Virus record (IMG/VR): IMGVR_UViG_3300012207_000103
Span: 1-43,134 of that record
Reading direction: 5' to 3' (one strand)
DNA: 43,134 nucleotides
Source: a virus
The translations under genes and the position numbers were made by a program. A model generated the notes under the pieces. The model ran no database searches. It was given only the letters and a program-made list of their open reading frames with translations, and was not told the origin of the DNA. This document shows, piece by piece, positions 4,050-20,716 of the stretch (position 1 is its first letter; each line of letters begins with the position of its first letter).

Positions 4050-4186
4050 TGGACGTCCCCGTGGATCGTGTCGTTGCGGCCGCCAAGGCGCAGCTCGCCG
4101 AATTGCTCTGGTCACTCATCCTGCGCCAGGCAGAGGTGGCGCAACTTACCGAGATGCTGAGTCCGAAGCGAGGTGATGACGAGTGA
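4049..4186 (+). CDS. 45-aa helical protein
   Basis: A short gene overlapping both neighbours: the start is in a TGATG with the fibre-like gene and the stop overlaps the lysin start (GTGA). The product (MDVPVDRVVAAAKAQLAELL...) is one long amphipathic helix with leucine/alanine heptad spacing, compatible with a small coiled coil. No transmembrane segment is present. Function is unknown; the double overlap suggests it is translated with the endolysin and may be a structural or lysis accessory factor. Confidence 0.6.
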   Translation: MDVPVDRVVAAAKAQLAELLWSLILRQAEVAQLTEMLSPKRGDDE

Positions 4187-4905
4187 GGATGCACGACTCC
4201 ATCACTGCCGCCCATATCCCTGTCGACGCGGTAGCAGTCGCTGGCTACGTGGACGGCTGGTATACGTGGTCTGCGCAGGACTGGGCGCTGTTTCCCAATG
4301 CCTACAAGCTGCGAGTTGCCGTCAAGGCCAGCACCAACGATGGCGACGTGCTCGACATCGAGCGTGGGGATGCCACTCCCGATCAGGCGCCTGGCTGGGT
4401 GGCCATGCGCCGGGCTGCAGGGCTTGCCCGACCCATCCTGTACTGCAGCCGCTTTAGCCTGGAAGCGGTCCGCTACTACATGGACAAAGCCGGGCAAACC
4501 GCCGATTACTGGGTAGCCGACTACACCGGAGCGCCGCACTCAATCGCTGGCGCCATCGCCGTGCAGTTTTCCGGCGACTCCACCTCTGGCGGGCACTACG
4601 ACCTGAGCGATATCGATGACACCTGGGTCCACGGAAAGGAACCTCCCATGTTCGACCCCCCGATTGGTCCTTTCGCTGCCATGCGCCCGTGGGTTGACGG
4701 CGGCTATTACGGGCTCGGCCCCGACGGTGCGATCTACGCCTTCGACGCTCCACCCTGCCACGGCGCCAACGGCCAGCCCTATTTCGTCGGGCGTACCGCC
4801 GCCGACTTCATTCACGGTGCAGACAACAAGATCGTTCGTAACTTCCTCGGTGGGGTGTCCATCCTCGCCACCTCCGGCGAACGATATGACCTCGCGCCGA
4901 GGTGA
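4183..4905 (+). CDS. Endolysin, GH25-like peptidoglycan hydrolase
   Basis: 240 aa from GTG 4183, which overlaps the preceding stop and lies 9 nt after GAGGTG; ATG 4189 is an alternative. The first ~155 residues form a GH25/DUF1906-type barrel: an aspartate in YVDGW (D24), the DIE motif at 58-60, WVADYTG and the closing AVQFSGDS...YDLSDID strand typical of these lysozymes. The ~85-residue C-terminus contains YYGLGPDGAIYAFD, resembling repeats of secreted actinobacterial proteins, and may bind the cell wall. No signal peptide is seen, so export probably depends on the small membrane proteins downstream. The expected reaction is cleavage of the peptidoglycan glycan strand. Confidence 0.8.
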   Translation: MRMHDSITAAHIPVDAVAVAGYVDGWYTWSAQDWALFPNAYKLRVAVKASTNDGDVLDIERGDATPDQAPGWVAMRRAAGLARPILYCSRFSLEAVRYYMDKAGQTADYWVADYTGAPHSIAGAIAVQFSGDSTSGGHYDLSDIDDTWVHGKEPPMFDPPIGPFAAMRPWVDGGYYGLGPDGAIYAFDAPPCHGANGQPYFVGRTAADFIHGADNKIVRNFLGGVSILATSGERYDLAPR

Positions 4906-6274: not shown

Positions 6275-7753
6275 TCACCGCTCCCGAGCGGTCTGCATCA
6301 ATTTCTCCAGCTCGCCCGGCTTCATGTTGAGGGCCGCCCCGATGTTGTTTCTAACATCGGGGCCGAAGGAGGCGAAGCCGTTGCGCTTCCGGCGCTCTAG
6401 CTGTCCCCGCAGCTCGGCGTTCTCCTCTTCCTGGCGGTGCATGACGCCACGCATCCTGTCGAGAGCTTCGCCAGTCTCTTTTGAAAGAGCCTTCAGTTGT
6501 GTCACCTCGTTTCGAAGGCTGAGGACGGTGGCCTTGTCGTCGGGACGCGCTTGAAGTTCCTTGATCTTGGCGTTTAGCTCCTCAACCCGAGCCCAGGAGC
6601 GGCGGGTTTCGGCAAGCATGCCCCGAAGCAGGTCCATGACAAACGACTCGCCTTCGCCGTCATCGCTGTCAGGGATAGGCGTGGGGGCAGGGGCCTGTTC
6701 CGCAGACCTCATCCTGCGCTCTAGCCGTTCGGTGGGCTCAGTCCGTAGAACTACCCACCCCCCAGCCCGATGTTCGATGTAGCCGTCTCGGGCGAGCTTT
6801 AAGTAGGTCCCCTCAATGGATTGATGCTTGACCCCTGCCATGTTGGCCATGACGGTCTCGCTTGGCAGGGTGCTGCCAACGGGGTGGATACCACTTTGGA
6901 TCTGACTGATGATGTGCTTACGCACGGTCGGGCGTTTATCTGCGGCTTGCTGGTCCTCTTTCACGTCGCTCCATTGGGTGTGAGCGTGCGTCTCGGGTTC
7001 GGGTTCGGGTGGAACCGGCTCTGGAAGCGGCTCTGGCTCTGGTTTCGGGTCGGGAGTCGTCTGCGCCGTGGGGGAGAGGGCAATCACTTCCCTGTGCTTG
7101 TTGACGAGACCTTGCGCCTCTAGGACTTTGACCGCCCGGTTAGCGGTGTCCTCTGACACATTGAACGACGCAGCAAGACTGGAGCCGACGGGTAGAGCCG
7201 ATCCGATGGGGTACCTGACGCCAAGCAAGCTTCGTAATTGCTCGGCAGTACGGGCGGTCTTTTTCGGCGGCGGTCTATCTTCTTTGCGCTTTGTGGCCGC
7301 CGCCGCTACCTCATCACTCATGACGTAGAACGCGCCTTCCTTTTGGTGAACGAGGGGTGGCGTCAGCCGGCCGAGCCTGTAGAACATTTGCCGCACACTA
7401 GTCGTGCCGATATCACCGTAGCGCCTCGATGTCTCCGCTATCCCCAGTCGTTGGCCCGGCCGGAGCGCCCCGCTTCGAATATCGCCTTCAAGGTTTGCCT
7501 GAGCGATCGCCACTGACTTACGAACGACCTCCGGCGTGATCTTTCCCTGCCGTATAGCTCTCTGGCGTAGCGTGCTTGGATCGGTGCTCTGCCAGTTGTG
7601 ATGCCTAGCCTTGTGCATGCCGAGGTGCTGATTCGCCTTGTTCGGCTGCACCCCTTCGAGCTGCCATGGGCCACCACCAGGCCCCATTCTGCAAGTCGGG
7701 TCATCGCAGTAGATGGTCATGGTTCTGGGCTGAGTCTCGGTAGCGGTTGGCAT
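6275..7753 (-). CDS. Triple winged-helix (GntR-type) regulator with coiled coil
   Basis: 492 aa. The N-terminus carries C16, C21 and a His cluster (H43, H47, H51), a possible zinc site. Three GntR-type winged-helix modules follow at roughly residues 83-145 (IRSGALRPGQRL), 169-228 (YPIGSALPVGSSLAASFNVS) and 275-337 (IQSGIHPVGSTLPSETVMAN). A P/E-rich linker lies around 234-256 between modules 2 and 3. The C-terminus (about 375-455) is a long coiled coil for oligomerisation. No ligand-binding effector domain is present. It is transcribed leftward and alone; a palindrome just upstream suggests autoregulation. The likely role is repression of lysogeny/lysis promoters or a partition-like DNA-binding function. 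Confidence 0.75.
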   Translation of the reverse strand: MPTATETQPRTMTIYCDDPTCRMGPGGGPWQLEGVQPNKANQHLGMHKARHHNWQSTDPSTLRQRAIRQGKITPEVVRKSVAIAQANLEGDIRSGALRPGQRLGIAETSRRYGDIGTTSVRQMFYRLGRLTPPLVHQKEGAFYVMSDEVAAAATKRKEDRPPPKKTARTAEQLRSLLGVRYPIGSALPVGSSLAASFNVSEDTANRAVKVLEAQGLVNKHREVIALSPTAQTTPDPKPEPEPLPEPVPPEPEPETHAHTQWSDVKEDQQAADKRPTVRKHIISQIQSGIHPVGSTLPSETVMANMAGVKHQSIEGTYLKLARDGYIEHRAGGWVVLRTEPTERLERRMRSAEQAPAPTPIPDSDDGEGESFVMDLLRGMLAETRRSWARVEELNAKIKELQARPDDKATVLSLRNEVTQLKALSKETGEALDRMRGVMHRQEEENAELRGQLERRKRNGFASFGPDVRNNIGAALNMKPGELEKLMQTARER

Positions 7754-14768: not shown

Positions 14769-15287
14769 TCAGTGGCCCGACCTCTCGCCCGTGGCCGTAG
14801 CAGGCACCACGGCCACGCTAGGGGCCTCAGACGGGTCGCTGGGCATCACCCCCAGCACGTCCGTAGCGTCGATGCCGTCCACCAACGCCCAGCGCTCGGC
14901 CACGGCGCTCGGGTCACGTAGGTCAACCCAACAGCGCTCGGTGTAGTTGTACGGGGCGAAGCCGCCCAGGATGACCCCACCCCATCCCGTGACGTCGATA
15001 CGGAAGCTCACGCCCCAGAGGGTTTCGTCGTCCATACCCTCGTAAGCACGCTGCTCGGCGATTTCCACGGCGATGTCTACCGAGCCCTCCCTTTCCTTGC
15101 CGTCGTCATTCAGCGTGCTGAACGCCCAGCGGTAGTCATCCGCCGACATGTCCCACACTTCGCCGCACGGGTACCCGGCTTCGATCAGAGCGCCTCGCAC
15201 GCGCTCAAGTAGTGCGGTGATGCTCGGCGCCAGCTCGGCCGCGAGGCCGGCTACCGCAGCGCTGTAGTCCAGCTCCTTGACTTCCAT
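14769..15287 (-). CDS. Hypothetical accessory protein, 172 aa
   Basis: ATG 15287 is preceded by ATAGGGAGGC, which lies directly after hammerhead ribozyme copy A. The protein is acidic and mixed alpha/beta (WDMSADDYRWAFSTLNDDG; DIAVEIAEQRAYEGMDDETL; SFRIDVTGWGGVILGGFAPY), with a low-complexity end. No family is recognised. The acidic surface could suit a DNA mimic or host-interaction protein, but this is speculative. It is translated from the 3' product if the ribozyme cuts. Confidence 0.7.
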   Translation of the reverse strand: MEVKELDYSAAVAGLAAELAPSITALLERVRGALIEAGYPCGEVWDMSADDYRWAFSTLNDDGKEREGSVDIAVEIAEQRAYEGMDDETLWGVSFRIDVTGWGGVILGGFAPYNYTERCWVDLRDPSAVAERWALVDGIDATDVLGVMPSDPSEAPSVAVVPATATGERSGH

Positions 15288-15301: not shown

Positions 15302-15376
15302 CATTGCCCACGGGTCTCCTCAGACGGCGGTAGTGGGGTACGCCGTGACTCCCCCAGAGGGGAGTTTCGACTAATG
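15302..15376 (-). ncRNA. Type II hammerhead ribozyme, copy A (canonical core)
   Basis: Read on the minus strand: GUC at 15371-15369, GAA, then stem III (A + CUCCCC, loop UCUG, GGGGAG + U) and C17 at 15347, the predicted cut site. Stem I is ACGGCG/CGCCGU with an 11-nt loop. The core CUGAGGA (15323-15317) matches CUGANGA exactly, and GAC closes stem II with GUC. Loop I CCCAC (15337-15333) pairs with GUGGG (15311-15307) as a pseudoknot. An outer stem CAUU/AAUG extends stem II. It begins in the stop codon of the 15371-15910 gene and ends ~15 nt before the ATG of the next. Confidence 0.88.
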
Positions 15377-15910
15377 CTTGTCGTTCAGGACTTCCAGGAA
15401 GGCATCGAACCGCGCCGCAGCGGAGAACAATTGGTCTTGCCTTTCTGGAGGTAGCTCGTGTCCGAATGTTGCTAGGGCTTTCCGCAGATCGCTCGTGTCT
15501 CGCCGCGAGAACGCTGAGAGTTCCCGGGCCATGCGGTCCAGCGCGTGGTAGAACGCCGTCTGACGACTACGGGCGTAGCCCTCGCTCGCGAGCCACTCCC
15601 TGGCAACAGGGATGAGTTGCTCTCCCAGCCGGCGCCGTGCAAGGTCGGTCAGATCGTCCCCACGTCCCCCGTTGCGCTCAGGGTCGTGTTCCTTGGCATC
15701 GCTCGCGTACACGCGCCATTCGCTCATGCCGCCGCTGTGGCGGTACCGATCTGCGCTGAGCGTGACAAGCGCGGGGCGCCCACGCCACGTGGTCTCGAAG
15801 TAGAACCAAACCTCTTCTTTTGTGACTTCGAGTTGTCCATTGTGCCAGTCAATGTGCACGCTATGGCTACCGGTGCGCAGTGGTGCTCGAAGCGTTGCCG
15901 TGTCTGCCAT
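15371..15910 (-). CDS. Hypothetical accessory protein, 179 aa
   Basis: Two in-frame ATGs exist (15919, 15910). The second is preferred because the motif GGATGGGAGAC lies before it, as in the sister genes. The protein has a beta-rich N-terminal half (VHIDWHNGQLEVTKEEVWFY, ALVTLSADRYRH) and a helical C-terminal half (QTAFYHALDRMARELSAFSR). No family is recognised. The TAG stop forms part of hammerhead copy A, and the start follows copy B, so the gene sits between two predicted cleavage sites. Confidence 0.7.
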   Translation of the reverse strand: MADTATLRAPLRTGSHSVHIDWHNGQLEVTKEEVWFYFETTWRGRPALVTLSADRYRHSGGMSEWRVYASDAKEHDPERNGGRGDDLTDLARRRLGEQLIPVAREWLASEGYARSRQTAFYHALDRMARELSAFSRRDTSDLRKALATFGHELPPERQDQLFSAAARFDAFLEVLNDKH

Positions 15911-15927
15911 GTCTCCCATCCTTTTTG

Positions 15928-15998
15928 CTAGCCCGTGGTCTCATTCAGCGCCGGTTACGGGTGTACCAGACGGACGGGCCGTAGCCCGTTTCGACTAG
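15928..15998 (-). ncRNA. Type II hammerhead ribozyme, copy B (variant core)
   Basis: Minus strand: CUAGUC then GAA; stem III A + CGGGC, tetraloop UACG, GCCCG + U; C17 at 15973. Stem I has about six pairs with one bulge and an 11-nt loop. The core reads CUGAAUGA, one nucleotide longer than CUGANGA. GAC pairs with GUC (stem II), and CUA/UAG extends it. The pseudoknot CCCGU (15961-15957) with ACGGG (15936-15932) differs from copy A by two compensatory base-pair changes. Activity is less certain because of the inserted core base. Confidence 0.75.
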
Positions 15999-16378
15999 AG
16001 TAATTGCAGGCGCTTGCAGAACGTTTGCAGCGTGTCGGCAAGCTCCGAAGCTAGCTCAGCTTCGATCACCCGTCGGTACTCCGGCGTTGCGTCTCCGATG
16101 CTCCAAAGGGACGTCGTAACGTCATCTAGCGTGCCCGGGGAGATCGTCAACTTCGCTATGCATCCCTCCCGAAAGGTGGGTGTCTCGTCTCCGTCCCCAG
16201 AGTCGTCGTCATCGGGGACCCATGAGAATTCCACGTCCATTTTCTTCGCCCATGCTTCCGCTACGGCGAGATCGGTAGCGCACCTGCGGCGCCCGCCTTC
16301 GCGGGTTTCGGTCTTCGGGTCATACGACCAACCCGCGTGGTCGTAAAAGAACTGCTCGTCTTTGGTCAATGCCACCAT
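15995..16378 (-). CDS. Acidic accessory protein, 127 aa
   Basis: ATG 16378 follows AGGGAGACGACA, directly after hammerhead copy C. The product is strongly acidic around its middle (WVPDDDDSGDGDETPTF), with a helical end (RVIEAELASELADTLQTFCK). The N-terminus (DEQFFYDHAGWSYDPKTETR) is conserved-looking but of unknown family. The TAG stop is embedded in hammerhead copy B. The acidity could fit DNA mimicry or protein binding; no evidence decides. Confidence 0.7.
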   Translation of the reverse strand: MVALTKDEQFFYDHAGWSYDPKTETREGGRRRCATDLAVAEAWAKKMDVEFSWVPDDDDSGDGDETPTFREGCIAKLTISPGTLDDVTTSLWSIGDATPEYRRVIEAELASELADTLQTFCKRLQLL

Positions 16379-16397
16379 TGTCGTCTCCCTATCCGTT

Positions 16398-16466
16398 CCC
16401 GTTTGGACTCATCGGCACGGGCGTTACGGGGTACCCGTGTACGGGCCAGCTTCAGCCCGTTTCGTC
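16398..16466 (-). ncRNA. Type II hammerhead ribozyme, copy C (variant core)
   Basis: Minus strand: GAC (16466-16464), GAA, stem III A + CGGGC, 8-nt loop, GCCCG + U, then A17 at 16440. Stem I is CACGGG/CCCGUG with a 12-nt loop. The core is CCGAUGA, which differs from CUGANGA only at U4 (C here). GUC (16408-16406) closes stem II, the reverse of the GUC/GAC pairing in copies A and B, a compensatory swap. Pseudoknot CCCGU (16430-16426) pairs with ACGGG (16402-16398). It begins right after the TAG of the 292-aa gene. Confidence 0.75.
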
Positions 16467-16467
16467 G

Positions 16468-17346
16468 CTACTCGCCGTAGGCTTCAGCCCACTGCGCATC
16501 GGAGTTGAGGAAGAACTCCCCTTCCCACCATCCGAAGCTGAAACCCTCCGGTGCCACGTGCTCGTTCAACCATGCCTCGACCTCGTCTGATGCATCGGAG
16601 AGCGCCTGGTGCTCGTCATCGGTGATCTGAGGCGCCTCAGATGGGCCGATGGTGGCAAGGTGGCGGGTAGCGATATCGATAACCTCCGCGTCCGCGTAGC
16701 CCCAGTCCTGCGCCTTCTCAACCATGTGGGCAATGGCGTACTGCCCCCAGTGGCCATCGACCCAACAGCCGGCAACGGTCGGGGTAGCGCGCTGGATCTC
16801 CTCGAGCCGGTAGACGATCTCCGCCCACCCGTCGCCGATGTAGATGTAGCCATGCGACTCACCGGCCATCAGATCCGCGTCGCACAACGGGCAGGTCTCC
16901 GCGGTAGCGGGTATGGCGTTTGCGCTGCCCGGTTCCGCGCTACGCCCAGGGCATTCCGTCTCCCCCGAGTTGCGGTAGCGTGCGACGACGCGCCAGGTAC
17001 CCTCGTCACCGGTGACGATCTGCGGCACGTAGCCGAACATCTCGTCTTCGCAGACCGTACGGAATATGGCATCCGTGGGGTGCCATTCCGGACCTTCCAG
17101 GTAGTCGGGCACACCCTGATGCCAGTAGGTGAACACAACCTCCCCGGTTGCGGTAAGCGTGTTCGTGATGTTGCGCTCATACGTTGGCACCCATGCCACG
17201 TCCATCAGTTCCCCACCCGTCAGACCGAACACTTCCGCTACCTGCGCCCGCTCGTTGCTTGCGCGCTGCTCGTCTTCCGTGTTCTTCGGTGCCACGTTGC
17301 CGTGCTCGTCGTAGCTACCCCACGCGTCGACTCCCAAATGTGGCAT
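16468..17346 (-). CDS. Hypothetical accessory protein, 292 aa
   Basis: ATG 17346 follows AGGAGAGGGAGAC. The protein is acidic with several apparent subdomains: an N-terminal segment (DEHGNVAPKNTEDEQRASNE), a beta-rich middle (GEVVFTYWHQGVPDYLEG), a CPLC knuckle near residue 150 and an acidic Trp-rich end (EGFSFGWWEGEFFLNSDAQW). No named family is recognised. It is the largest gene of the ribozyme-separated operon, and hammerhead copy C starts at its stop codon. Accessory function, possibly against host defence, is only a guess from context. Confidence 0.7.
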   Translation of the reverse strand: MPHLGVDAWGSYDEHGNVAPKNTEDEQRASNERAQVAEVFGLTGGELMDVAWVPTYERNITNTLTATGEVVFTYWHQGVPDYLEGPEWHPTDAIFRTVCEDEMFGYVPQIVTGDEGTWRVVARYRNSGETECPGRSAEPGSANAIPATAETCPLCDADLMAGESHGYIYIGDGWAEIVYRLEEIQRATPTVAGCWVDGHWGQYAIAHMVEKAQDWGYADAEVIDIATRHLATIGPSEAPQITDDEHQALSDASDEVEAWLNEHVAPEGFSFGWWEGEFFLNSDAQWAEAYGE

Positions 17347-17357
17347 GTCTCCCTCTC

Positions 17358-17519
17358 CTATCCGTTGACCTTGGCAACAACGATCAGTACCGTCTGGCCT
17401 TCGTCGTCTTTCCCGACATACGCCTCAGCTACGTCACAAAGGTCGAATTCGGTTTTTACGACGACATCCATGTGCTTCCGCACGCCAAGCATTGCGTTAA
17501 ATAGCTCTCCTACCGTCAC
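17358..17519 (-). CDS. 53-aa protein heading the accessory operon
   Basis: GTG 17519 with AAGGGATGAAAG upstream gives MTVGELFNAMLGVRKHMDVV, continuing to a beta-rich end (GQTVLIVVAKVNG). The gap to the 292-aa gene is only 11 nt and has no ribozyme. The sequence has ordinary amino-acid composition and looks translated. No family is recognised. Confidence 0.55.
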   Translation of the reverse strand: MTVGELFNAMLGVRKHMDVVVKTEFDLCDVAEAYVGKDDEGQTVLIVVAKVNG

Positions 17520-17533
17520 CTTTCATCCCTTCG

Positions 17534-17788
17534 TCAATTGCTTCCCGAACCATCACGGACGGCGCCTGGAATTGACCACGGGCGCCTACCGTCATCGTTG
17601 GAAGACATAGGCCTCAGGGGGTGAGAGGAGAGGCCATGATCCTCAGTCCAGTTAGGACTATCATCCGGGCTGACGTACCGCTGGGCGGTAGCTCGTGCTA
17701 GAGCGATCGTTATCCGCTCCCGGCTCCCCAGCCCTACACGTCTGGGGTTCGCCTCCCGCTCCCGGGCGATCTGCTCCCGGCCTCTCAT
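17534..17788 (-). CDS. Possible 84-aa protein (weak)
   Basis: An open frame runs from beyond 18000, but ATG 17788 is the first start downstream of the promoter at 17829-17857. The start has no clear Shine-Dalgarno and is preceded by a hairpin (GGGAGA/TCTCCC with an A-rich loop on the minus strand). The product is basic then polar (REQIAREREANPRRVGLGSR; RITIALARATAQRYVSPDDS). The stop lies 14 nt before the next start, as expected in an operon, but coding potential is unconvincing. Confidence 0.35.
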   Translation of the reverse strand: MRGREQIAREREANPRRVGLGSRERITIALARATAQRYVSPDDSPNWTEDHGLSSHPLRPMSSNDDGRRPWSIPGAVRDGSGSN

Positions 17789-17828
17789 GTGGGGGAGATT
17801 TTTTCCGTCTCCCGAGCGCTGCAACTCT

Positions 17829-17857
17829 AAGGTAAAGCTACTTGCCAAGGATGTAAA
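17829..17857 (-). promoter_or_regulatory. Promoter of the leftward accessory operon
   Basis: On the minus strand TTTACA (complement of 17852-17857), 17 bp, then TACCTT (complement of 17829-17834) form a good sigma-70-type promoter. It would start transcription near 17822 and drive the ribozyme-containing operon. Confidence 0.6.
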
Positions 17858-17984
17858 GAGATTTCTTGGGACACGGTGGGTTCTGTCGGGATCACGACAA
17901 AGGTCAGGCCGAGTTGATGGGAGATCCTGGCAACCCCATGAGGTACTTGCACGTTTGGCGGGAACCTGATAGCAACCCAGGTGA

Positions 17985-18735
17985 TAGCTGAGCGCGCTCA
18001 GCTCTGGGCGACAGGGACGCACGAACGGTCGCCTTATCCGGGTCAGAGCCGGCACACGACAGGTGTGGCTCTTGCCTGGTGAGCTGATGACAACAACAGG
18101 ATTGGTGGATGATCGCCCCGAAAAATAAAGGGGAATGTGAGGCTGGGGAAGCTCTGTTCGGAGGCCGGAGGCCGGAGGCCAGAACTCAAGCAGAGCAACA
18201 AAGGCGAGTCGGGCTAGTGGTGGGCGCGTTGAACCTGTCTAACCGCCAGACGCTGAGGGATGGAAGTGCTTTGAAGCTTGTAAAGCGCTCAGAGCCGAAG
18301 GCGACGAGCGCGCTGAATTAAAAATCTTTAGCGCTCGTGCAACGCTGGGAAAGCAACACCTGAGCCGCTGAGTTACTGCACGGAATTCCCTGCCTAATTG
18401 CAGCTAAGCAACGAGCAGGGATGTGGACCATCCAGGACTGTGACGGCATTGAGACGAATGCTGGCCCAGCTCGAGGGATTTGAGTAACTATCTCAGCATC
18501 AACCGATGCTTAAGCCTGAGGCGAACCAGACGAATCGCCCAGGCGCAGGCGAGGGAGCACGGCAACCCGGGGGTGCAAATCGTTCGGTCGCTCCGCTCCC
18601 TCACTACCCCCGGAGAGATGCCACCTGGAATCTGAACCCGGTAGGCTCCAACCCTGGGGCACCGAGGCTCTGGTCGCGGGTAAGCCAGCCGGGAGGGATG
18701 CTAGCCGAGCCTGGACTCCCACTCGGTGCCTCTTT
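17985..18735 (+). ncRNA. About 0.7-kb large structured RNA candidate
   Basis: No credible gene lies here, but the plus strand is packed with local helices: AGAGC-CACAC/GTGTG-GCTCT (18045-18072); GCTCTG/CAGAGC (18151, 18191) enclosing three GGAGGCC repeats (18160-18180); TGGTGG/CCGCCA (18218, 18243); AGTGCTTT/AAAGCGCT (18265, 18282); ACGAGCGC/GCGCTCGT (18304, 18331); TCCCTGC/GCAGGGA (18387, 18415); AGCATC/GATGCT (18495); CCTG-GGCGA/TCGCC-CAGG (18515); GAGGGAGC/GCTCCCTC (18551, 18595); GGCACCGAG/CTCGGTGCC (18658, 18722). Several contain G-U pairs valid only on the plus strand. Size, phage setting and a nearby tRNA recall GOLLD/ROOL-type giant RNAs, but identity needs a model search. Confidence 0.6.
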
Positions 18736-18976: not shown

Positions 18977-19195
18977 GTGGCCAACTCGGAGACGCTGGAT
19001 CTGATGGCGCTACGGATCTGGGGCTTGCTCGCTACCCAGGGTCACTCTCAGGCGTGGCTGGCCCGCCAATCGGGCTGTAGCCAGAAGCACGTGAGCCTGG
19101 TGCTCACCGGCAAGGCCGATGCTTCAGTGGAGATGCTGGAACGGTGGGCCAACCTGCTGGGGTATCGCTTCACTGTCGGGGTTCGTCGTCTCTAA
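18977..19195 (+). CDS. XRE-family HTH regulator, 72 aa
   Basis: The frame is open from 18899, but GTG 18977 just after the preceding stop gives a compact HTH protein. Residues ~10-60 are a classic XRE domain: ALRIWGLLATQGHSQAWLAR, QSGCSQKHVSLVLTGKADAS, VEMLERWANLLGYRF. It probably controls early or ncRNA-region promoters. Its 3' end overlaps the convergent zinc-ribbon gene by 26 nt. Confidence 0.78.
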   Translation: MANSETLDLMALRIWGLLATQGHSQAWLARQSGCSQKHVSLVLTGKADASVEMLERWANLLGYRFTVGVRRL

Positions 19196-19520
19196 TGTTC
19201 CCTCGGTACGTCTCAATCGCCCGCCAGATCTCGCCGGCCGTGAGGCCCCGCTGGGCGGCTGCGTGGATACGGGCTGCGGCATCGGGGGCCACCGCCGCGA
19301 TCTCGGCGAATTGGCCCGCCACCAGGCGAACCGGGGTGTCGGGGTCGCAGCCTTTCTGGGAGCAGGGTAGGCAGACGGTGGTGGTATCGGGGTGGGCGAA
19401 CAGGTAGGTGATGGAGGATCCTGACACCCAGATCGCCTGACCACACTCCGAGCAGACGTCATCGATGGTGCTCTCCGTGGTGGGACCGGGCCAGGCTACG
19501 GGCCAGCAGATGATGTGCAC
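19170..19520 (-). CDS. Zinc-ribbon protein, 116 aa
   Basis: GTG 19520 starts a protein with CSECG near residue 23 and CLPCSQKGC about 27 residues later, a zinc-ribbon or treble clef. A helical C-terminal part follows (AAARIHAAAQRGLTAGEIWR). A -10-like TAAGAT lies ~7 nt before the start, so it may be leaderless. It is divergent from the MazG-like gene and convergent with the HTH gene. Composition and the cysteine pattern support coding; function is unknown. Confidence 0.6.
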   Translation of the reverse strand: MHIICWPVAWPGPTTESTIDDVCSECGQAIWVSGSSITYLFAHPDTTTVCLPCSQKGCDPDTPVRLVAGQFAEIAAVAPDAAARIHAAAQRGLTAGEIWRAIETYRGNIRDDEPRQ

Positions 19521-20643: not shown

Positions 20644-20715
20644 GGGGCCGTAGCTCAGTGGCAGAGCGAATGGTTTGCAACCAAGCGGTCGTCGGTTCGA
20701 GTCCGACCGGCTCCA
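20644..20715 (+). tRNA. tRNA-Ala (UGC)-like
   Basis: All arms are visible: acceptor GGGGCCG/CGGCTCC (7 bp), D stem GCTC/GAGC, T stem GTCGG/CCGAC with loop TTCGAGT, and A73. Anticodon TGC sits in loop TTTGCAA. The acceptor has the G3-U70 pair, the alanine identity element. No CCA is encoded. The anticodon stem AATGG/CCAAG has only three good pairs (A27-G43 and A28-A42 mismatch). A competing TGGTT/AACCA fold is possible. It could be functional, or altered or decayed. Confidence 0.8.
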
Positions 20716-20716
20716 C

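Follow-up and report, generated by a model that had tools for sequence, protein, structure and literature searches.

Why should three consecutive gene junctions of one phage operon each carry what looks like a self-cleaving RNA, and what would become of the operon transcript if all three cut it? The question is raised by a 43,134-base virus record (IMGVR_UViG_3300012207_000103), which we analyzed whole and refer to as the window. The record carries integrase, RecT-like and terminase genes, so its source is a tailed, probably temperate phage; its terminase can be aligned in part with annotated phage records, at ∼27–30% identity; most of these are Streptomyces phages and some are Bacillus phages. 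A short operon of five genes runs along the minus strand from 17519 to 14769 (Table 1). Its first gap, between the 53-aa ORF and the 292-aa gene, measures 11 nt and holds a ribosome-binding site alone, without a hammerhead. The last three gaps (89, 75 and 83 nt between the longest ORFs) each hold one hammerhead and one ribosome-binding site, which places a hammerhead on the coding strand at all three gene junctions between 17346 and 14769. For the 182-aa gene an alternative ATG, giving a 179-aa product, has the better-placed ribosome-binding site.

The products of the last four operon genes gave no match in Pfam or PHROG. Relatives were sought by DNA search of annotated phages, by tblastn with three operon proteins, by pattern searches of IMG/VR with the terminase and two operon proteins, and by a terminase pattern search of GTDB genomes; none of these yielded anything usable. 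Upstream of the operon, the region 17534–18200, in which convincing ORFs are few and a short motif, ctggcctccggcctccggcctccg, is repeated, may hold the operon promoter. Elsewhere the record has a single tRNA gene, tRNA-Ala (anticodon TGC), at 20644–20716, and a 492-aa protein encoded next to the integrase (6275–7753, minus strand), a candidate regulator with a GntR-type helix-turn-helix at residues 169–218.

Table 1. Genes of the minus-strand operon and elements of its three type II hammerheads, in order of transcription; positions are those of the window.
Feature	Position	Strand	Description	RF02276 (bits)	R1 (bits)	R1 E-value
Small ORF	17358..17519	-	53 aa, GTG start, first in operon
Operon gene	16468..17346	-	292 aa, no known family; UAG stop ends 1 nt before stem II of copy C
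Copy C	16398..16466	-	GAC-GAA-ACGGGC...GCCCGU-A-CACGGG...CCCGUG-CCGAUGA-GUC	no match	24.2	4.5e-5
C, stem II	16464-16466/16406-16408	-	GAC/GUC
C, stem III	16441-16460	-
C, cleavage base	16440	-	predicted cleavage after A16440
C, stem I	16416-16439	-
C, core	16409-16415	-	variant CCGAUGA (U4C at 16414)
C, pseudoknot		-	CCCGU/ACGGG
Operon gene	15995..16378	-	127 aa, no known family; last base (G) of UAG stop is first base of copy B stem II
Copy B	15931..15995	-	GUC-GAA-ACGGGC...GCCCGU-C-CGUC(U)GGU...ACCGGCG-CUGAAUGA-GAC	17.6	31.7	2.9e-7
B, stem II	15993-15995/15938-15940	-	GUC/GAC
B, stem III	15974-15989	-
B, cleavage base	15973	-	predicted cleavage after C15973
B, stem I	15949-15972	-	5′ bulge U15968
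B, core	15941-15948	-	variant CUGAAUGA (extra A)
B, pseudoknot		-	CCCGU/ACGGG
Operon gene	15371..15919	-	182 aa, no known family; last base (G) of UAG stop is first base of copy A stem II
Copy A	15306..15371	-	GUC-GAA-ACUCCCC...GGGGAGU-C-ACGGCG...CGCCGU-CUGAGGA-GAC	23.4	28.4	2.7e-6
A, stem II	15369-15371/15314-15316	-	GUC/GAC
A, GAA	15366-15368	-
A, stem III	15348-15365	-
A, cleavage base	15347	-	predicted cleavage after C15347
A, stem I	15324-15346	-
A, core	15317-15323	-	consensus CUGAGGA
A, pseudoknot	15307-15311 (tail strand)	-	CCCAC/GUGGG
Last operon gene	14769..15287	-	172 aa, no known family

All three copies follow exactly the order that defines the type II permutation: 5′ strand of stem II, GAA, stem III, the cleavage base H17, stem I, core and 3′ strand of stem II (Table 1). 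The initial annotation had proposed such an element for each of these minus-strand gaps, and every part of it was found where it had been placed, including the stem II pairs and the three predicted cleavage bases. Stem III is closed by A15.1–U16.1 in every copy, and H17 is never G. The pairing proposed between loop I and the tail, which many but not all type II hammerheads have, is borne out as complementarity, with 5 bp per copy; shuffled loop/tail pairs reach at least 5 bp in 4.1% (A), 2.5% (B) and 1.9% (C) of trials. The further claim of a CUGANGA-type core stands for copy A alone: the extra A of copy B and the U4C change of copy C are deviations that the initial annotation had overlooked.

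We searched for these elements with a descriptor scan and with a covariance model. The descriptor, which tolerated up to one core change, found copies A, B and C only, and the same scan of 10 dinucleotide shuffles of the minus strand gave no matches, nor did 1.1 Mb of loci, scanned as five one-strand shuffles and with any single core change permitted. The covariance model, R1, was built from 33 hammerheads of other phages, with the window left out; in its training sequences, which had been chosen by pairing, stems I and III and the pseudoknot covary strongly (153 double-change cells, compared with 39.6 in shuffles). R1 finds exactly the three copies in the window, the next best score being 11.5 bits, and neither scan returned any further hammerhead there. 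The observation is thus confirmed: the three elements are type II hammerhead folds in three consecutive minus-strand gaps.

A search with the Rfam type II model (RF02276), the check that had originally been suggested, fails at the cut-off. The gathering score is 37, and the model leaves copies A and B below it and misses copy C, since the consensus core is confined to copy A. This score is a threshold curated for detection and does not describe any feature of the structure, and RF02276 passes several hammerheads of other phages. Thermodynamic folding without a pseudoknot term was unhelpful. It puts the hammerhead fold 7.2 (A) and 9.8 (B) kcal/mol above the minimum-energy fold, where typical hammerheads have a median of ∼1; these modeled energies, in which the pseudoknot is uncounted, would speak against high activity of the two copies.

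This leaves a puzzle: how are the two non-consensus cores to be read? We searched IMG/VR for this frame combined with changed cores and filtered the distinct matches for stems I and III. With near-identical 5′ parts removed and kinship ignored, so that related contigs may be among the matches, U4C was accompanied by intact stems in 46 of 89 pattern matches, U4A in 0 of 29 and U4G in 0 of 27 (together 0/56), and changes of G5 in 2 of 45 (G5A 0/8, G5C 2/21, G5U 0/16). An insertion after A6 was accompanied by stems in 13 of 46 matches, copy B of the window probably being included via loci L001/L002; all structured cases had A as the inserted base. Among the structured U4C hammerheads, 35 lie against a stop codon, and in 25 the pseudoknot reaches at least 4 bp; consensus and U4C members stand together in the arrays of loci L216, L233, L253 and L266. 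The first IMG/VR scan covers consensus hammerheads among the matches listed, and the relative frequencies of altered-core and consensus classes are not comparable from these counts.

The cores with the extra A have a further peculiarity, a single-base 5′ bulge in stem I, which is present in 7 of 12 of them and in 6 of 166 consensus hammerheads among the matches listed (Fisher p 1.2e-6, with near-identical stem I sequences removed and kinship ignored); without the window copy the proportion is 6/11. From these sequences we propose a +A/bulged-stem-I class, with the core CUGAANGA and often a 5′ bulge in stem I after 3–5 bp. Copy B, with both its extra A and its bulge, fits this class. The GTDB bacterial and archaeal genomes gave at least 118 matches to the +A pattern, and no hammerhead stems were present among the matches listed, which yields no named strain with this class and makes this search a false-positive control for the stem filter.

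The placement of the elements is equally regular in other phages. Among the matches listed, a stop codon begins 1–8 nt before stem II in 94 of the 137 evaluable IMG/VR type II hammerheads, most commonly at a distance of 2 nt, with one base shared. A stop codon upstream combined with a ribosome-binding site and start codon downstream was likewise found for 94/137 among the matches listed, and for 8% of random positions and 5% of positions on the antisense strand. Phage type II hammerheads in IMG/VR also appear to fall into two groups, one combining a 3-bp stem II with a long loop I and a pseudoknot, the other combining a 4-bp stem II with a short loop I and lacking the pseudoknot.

The initial annotation had regarded a tandem series between genes as unusual. 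This view does not hold, since clustered hammerheads have been published (PMC3088659) and IMG/VR contains arrays of 8 to 31. When R1 was run on 16 source contigs, a 64.8-kb contig (IMGVR_UViG_3300033551_000003) proved to carry 31 same-strand hammerheads, U4C cores included, within 18.6 kb (42.6–61.2 kb), and other contigs carried 13, 11, 11, 9, 8 and 8. Over these seven arrays and the window, 70 of 94 hammerheads lie in gene gaps and 7 inside an ORF called by a crude gene caller; several of the remaining ones in the 31-copy array overlap the last 16–19 nt of the called upstream gene. In the stretch of that contig from 42000 to 61999 (L400), most hammerheads stand between small genes, with UUAGGAG and a start codon directly 3′. 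L400 also contains cores of other kinds (e.g. at its positions 16993–17067, 19182–19250 and 4141–4206): one type gains an A after A9 (CUGAUGAAGAC), the insertion known from the CChMVd viroid, and another is C3U/G8A-like (UUGAAAA).

What would such elements do to the transcript? As each gap is transcribed, stem III would form, followed by stem I, and loop I would pair with the tail after stem II, whereupon the RNA would cut itself 3′ of the H17 base. The polycistronic RNA would be converted into shorter messages, single-gene ones between hammerheads, and the coding sequences would stay intact because each cut lies ∼22–28 nt beyond a stop codon, ahead of the ribosome-binding site that follows. 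Hammerhead cleavage leaves a 2′,3′-cyclic phosphate and a 5′-OH. The upstream piece would end in the cyclic phosphate, with the stem III hairpin just past its stop codon, and the downstream piece would begin with the 5′-OH and the stem I hairpin, followed by the ribosome-binding site; such ends should resist 3′ exonucleases and 5′-monophosphate-dependent RNases. Both cleavage and end groups we infer from the established chemistry of the hammerhead family, and copies B and C are predicted to be active, though probably slower than copy A. Stem II and part of stem III would lie under a ribosome at the stop codon, so upstream translation could delay folding. On balance we consider it likely that type II hammerheads cut the operon transcript into shorter, end-protected messages. 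Separation into such messages fits best with a hammerhead placed between stop codon and ribosome-binding site, and we infer that separation and protection may be the function under selection.

The variant cores invite a different account, one that we regard as unlikely, in which copy A alone is active and copies B and C, duplicates in decay, owe their odd cores to drift. Both cores are indeed off consensus, the fold energy of copy B is poor, and the stem III and loop I sequences common to B and C suggest a duplication. In earlier work, moreover, an insertion after A6 (A6a) gave low activity and U4C was weaker in vitro, yet U4C supports viroid infectivity (PMC3088659). Drift, however, should strike any core position and should not spare the stems, whereas those of B and C differ in sequence and have kept their pairing. 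Furthermore, U4C and the extra A recur in phage contigs together with intact stems, stop-codon placement and pseudoknots, and U4A, U4G and changes of G5 hardly do, which argues that copies B and C are not like products of random decay. As far as these sequence patterns can tell, random decay does not explain the cores; tolerated or selected alternative cores would.

Could the hammerheads instead be regulated switches, whose cleavage responds to ions, upstream translation or a ligand and sets downstream expression? Stem II overlaps the stop codon, so part of the fold would lie under any ribosome that terminates there, and A6C, a natural phage core variant, shifts the preference between Mn2+ and Mg2+ (PMC7151607). 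The overlap may, however, be mere economy of space, and each gap consists of a hammerhead and a ribosome-binding site only, without an aptamer-like domain; we find regulation of this kind quite improbable. It would be still harder to believe that the gaps contain common hairpins, such as terminators or RNase sites, whose likeness to a hammerhead is accidental. Stem III is a strong G+C-rich hairpin directly after each stop codon, and the Rfam scores are under the cut-off. Against this stand the core, GAA, A-U closure, stem II and pseudoknot, a full set that never arose in shuffles and recurs in more than 100 phage contigs. A U-run after stem III is absent in all three copies, and on this ground we rejected terminators as the identity of the gaps.

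The separation of one operon's transcript into end-protected messages may have a wider counterpart. Tentatively, and with rather more doubt than for the window itself, we suggest that many phages punctuate whole operons, a hammerhead at most junctions, between stop codon and ribosome-binding site, producing hairpin-ended single-gene messages without protein; alternative cores (consensus, U4C and +A/bulge) with different rates would then set the extent of cutting at each junction. If this is true, the window is one case of it, with three copies that represent all three core classes. Given the placement, the recurrence of alternative cores and arrays that reach 31 copies, a role in separating and protecting messages can be tested directly, and a recurrent part of the natural phage hammerheads is missed by the Rfam model at its cut-off.

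How much of this was known? In the literature searched, which included few subscription papers, ribozyme processing of phage operons appears only in the 2011 paper of Perreault et al. (PMC3088659) and in reviews, one of which (2017; PMC6155905) describes hammerheads on either side of small unconserved ORFs and regards their role in bacteria and phages as an open question. The same literature yielded no mention of stop-codon sharing as a rule, of arrays of tens of copies, of U4C and +A/bulge as recurrent classes, or of a demonstrated benefit of message separation.

Perreault et al. described type II hammerheads with the pseudoknot, rare core variants and gene-flanking clusters in prophages, so the window is of a known kind, with recurrent core variants. 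It shares with RF02276 (PMC3088659) the permutation, the GAA, the A-U-closed stem III, the short stem II and the pseudoknot between loop I and the 3′ tail; unlike that family, two of its three cores are non-consensus and its scores lie under the gathering cut-off. The published prophage clusters, in Agrobacterium tumefaciens (a triple set with ardA), Azorhizobium caulinodans and Clostridium scindens, likewise have several same-strand hammerheads around consecutive small phage genes, and a triple prophage set cleaves itself both in vitro and in E. coli; there too it was proposed that long transcripts are processed into single-gene mRNAs (PMC3088659). In the window each hammerhead abuts or shares the stop codon and fills the gap. 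Natural core variants have been reported (PMC3088659, PMC3705267) and include both deviations of the window, the U4C of copy C and copy B's insertion after A6; the extra A of CChMVd, after A9, lies at a different position. Those were described as rare cases, whereas here they form recurrent classes of phage type II hammerheads, the extra A in company with the stem I bulge. The genes differ from those of the published clusters, and what sets the window apart is the presence of three different core classes within one operon.
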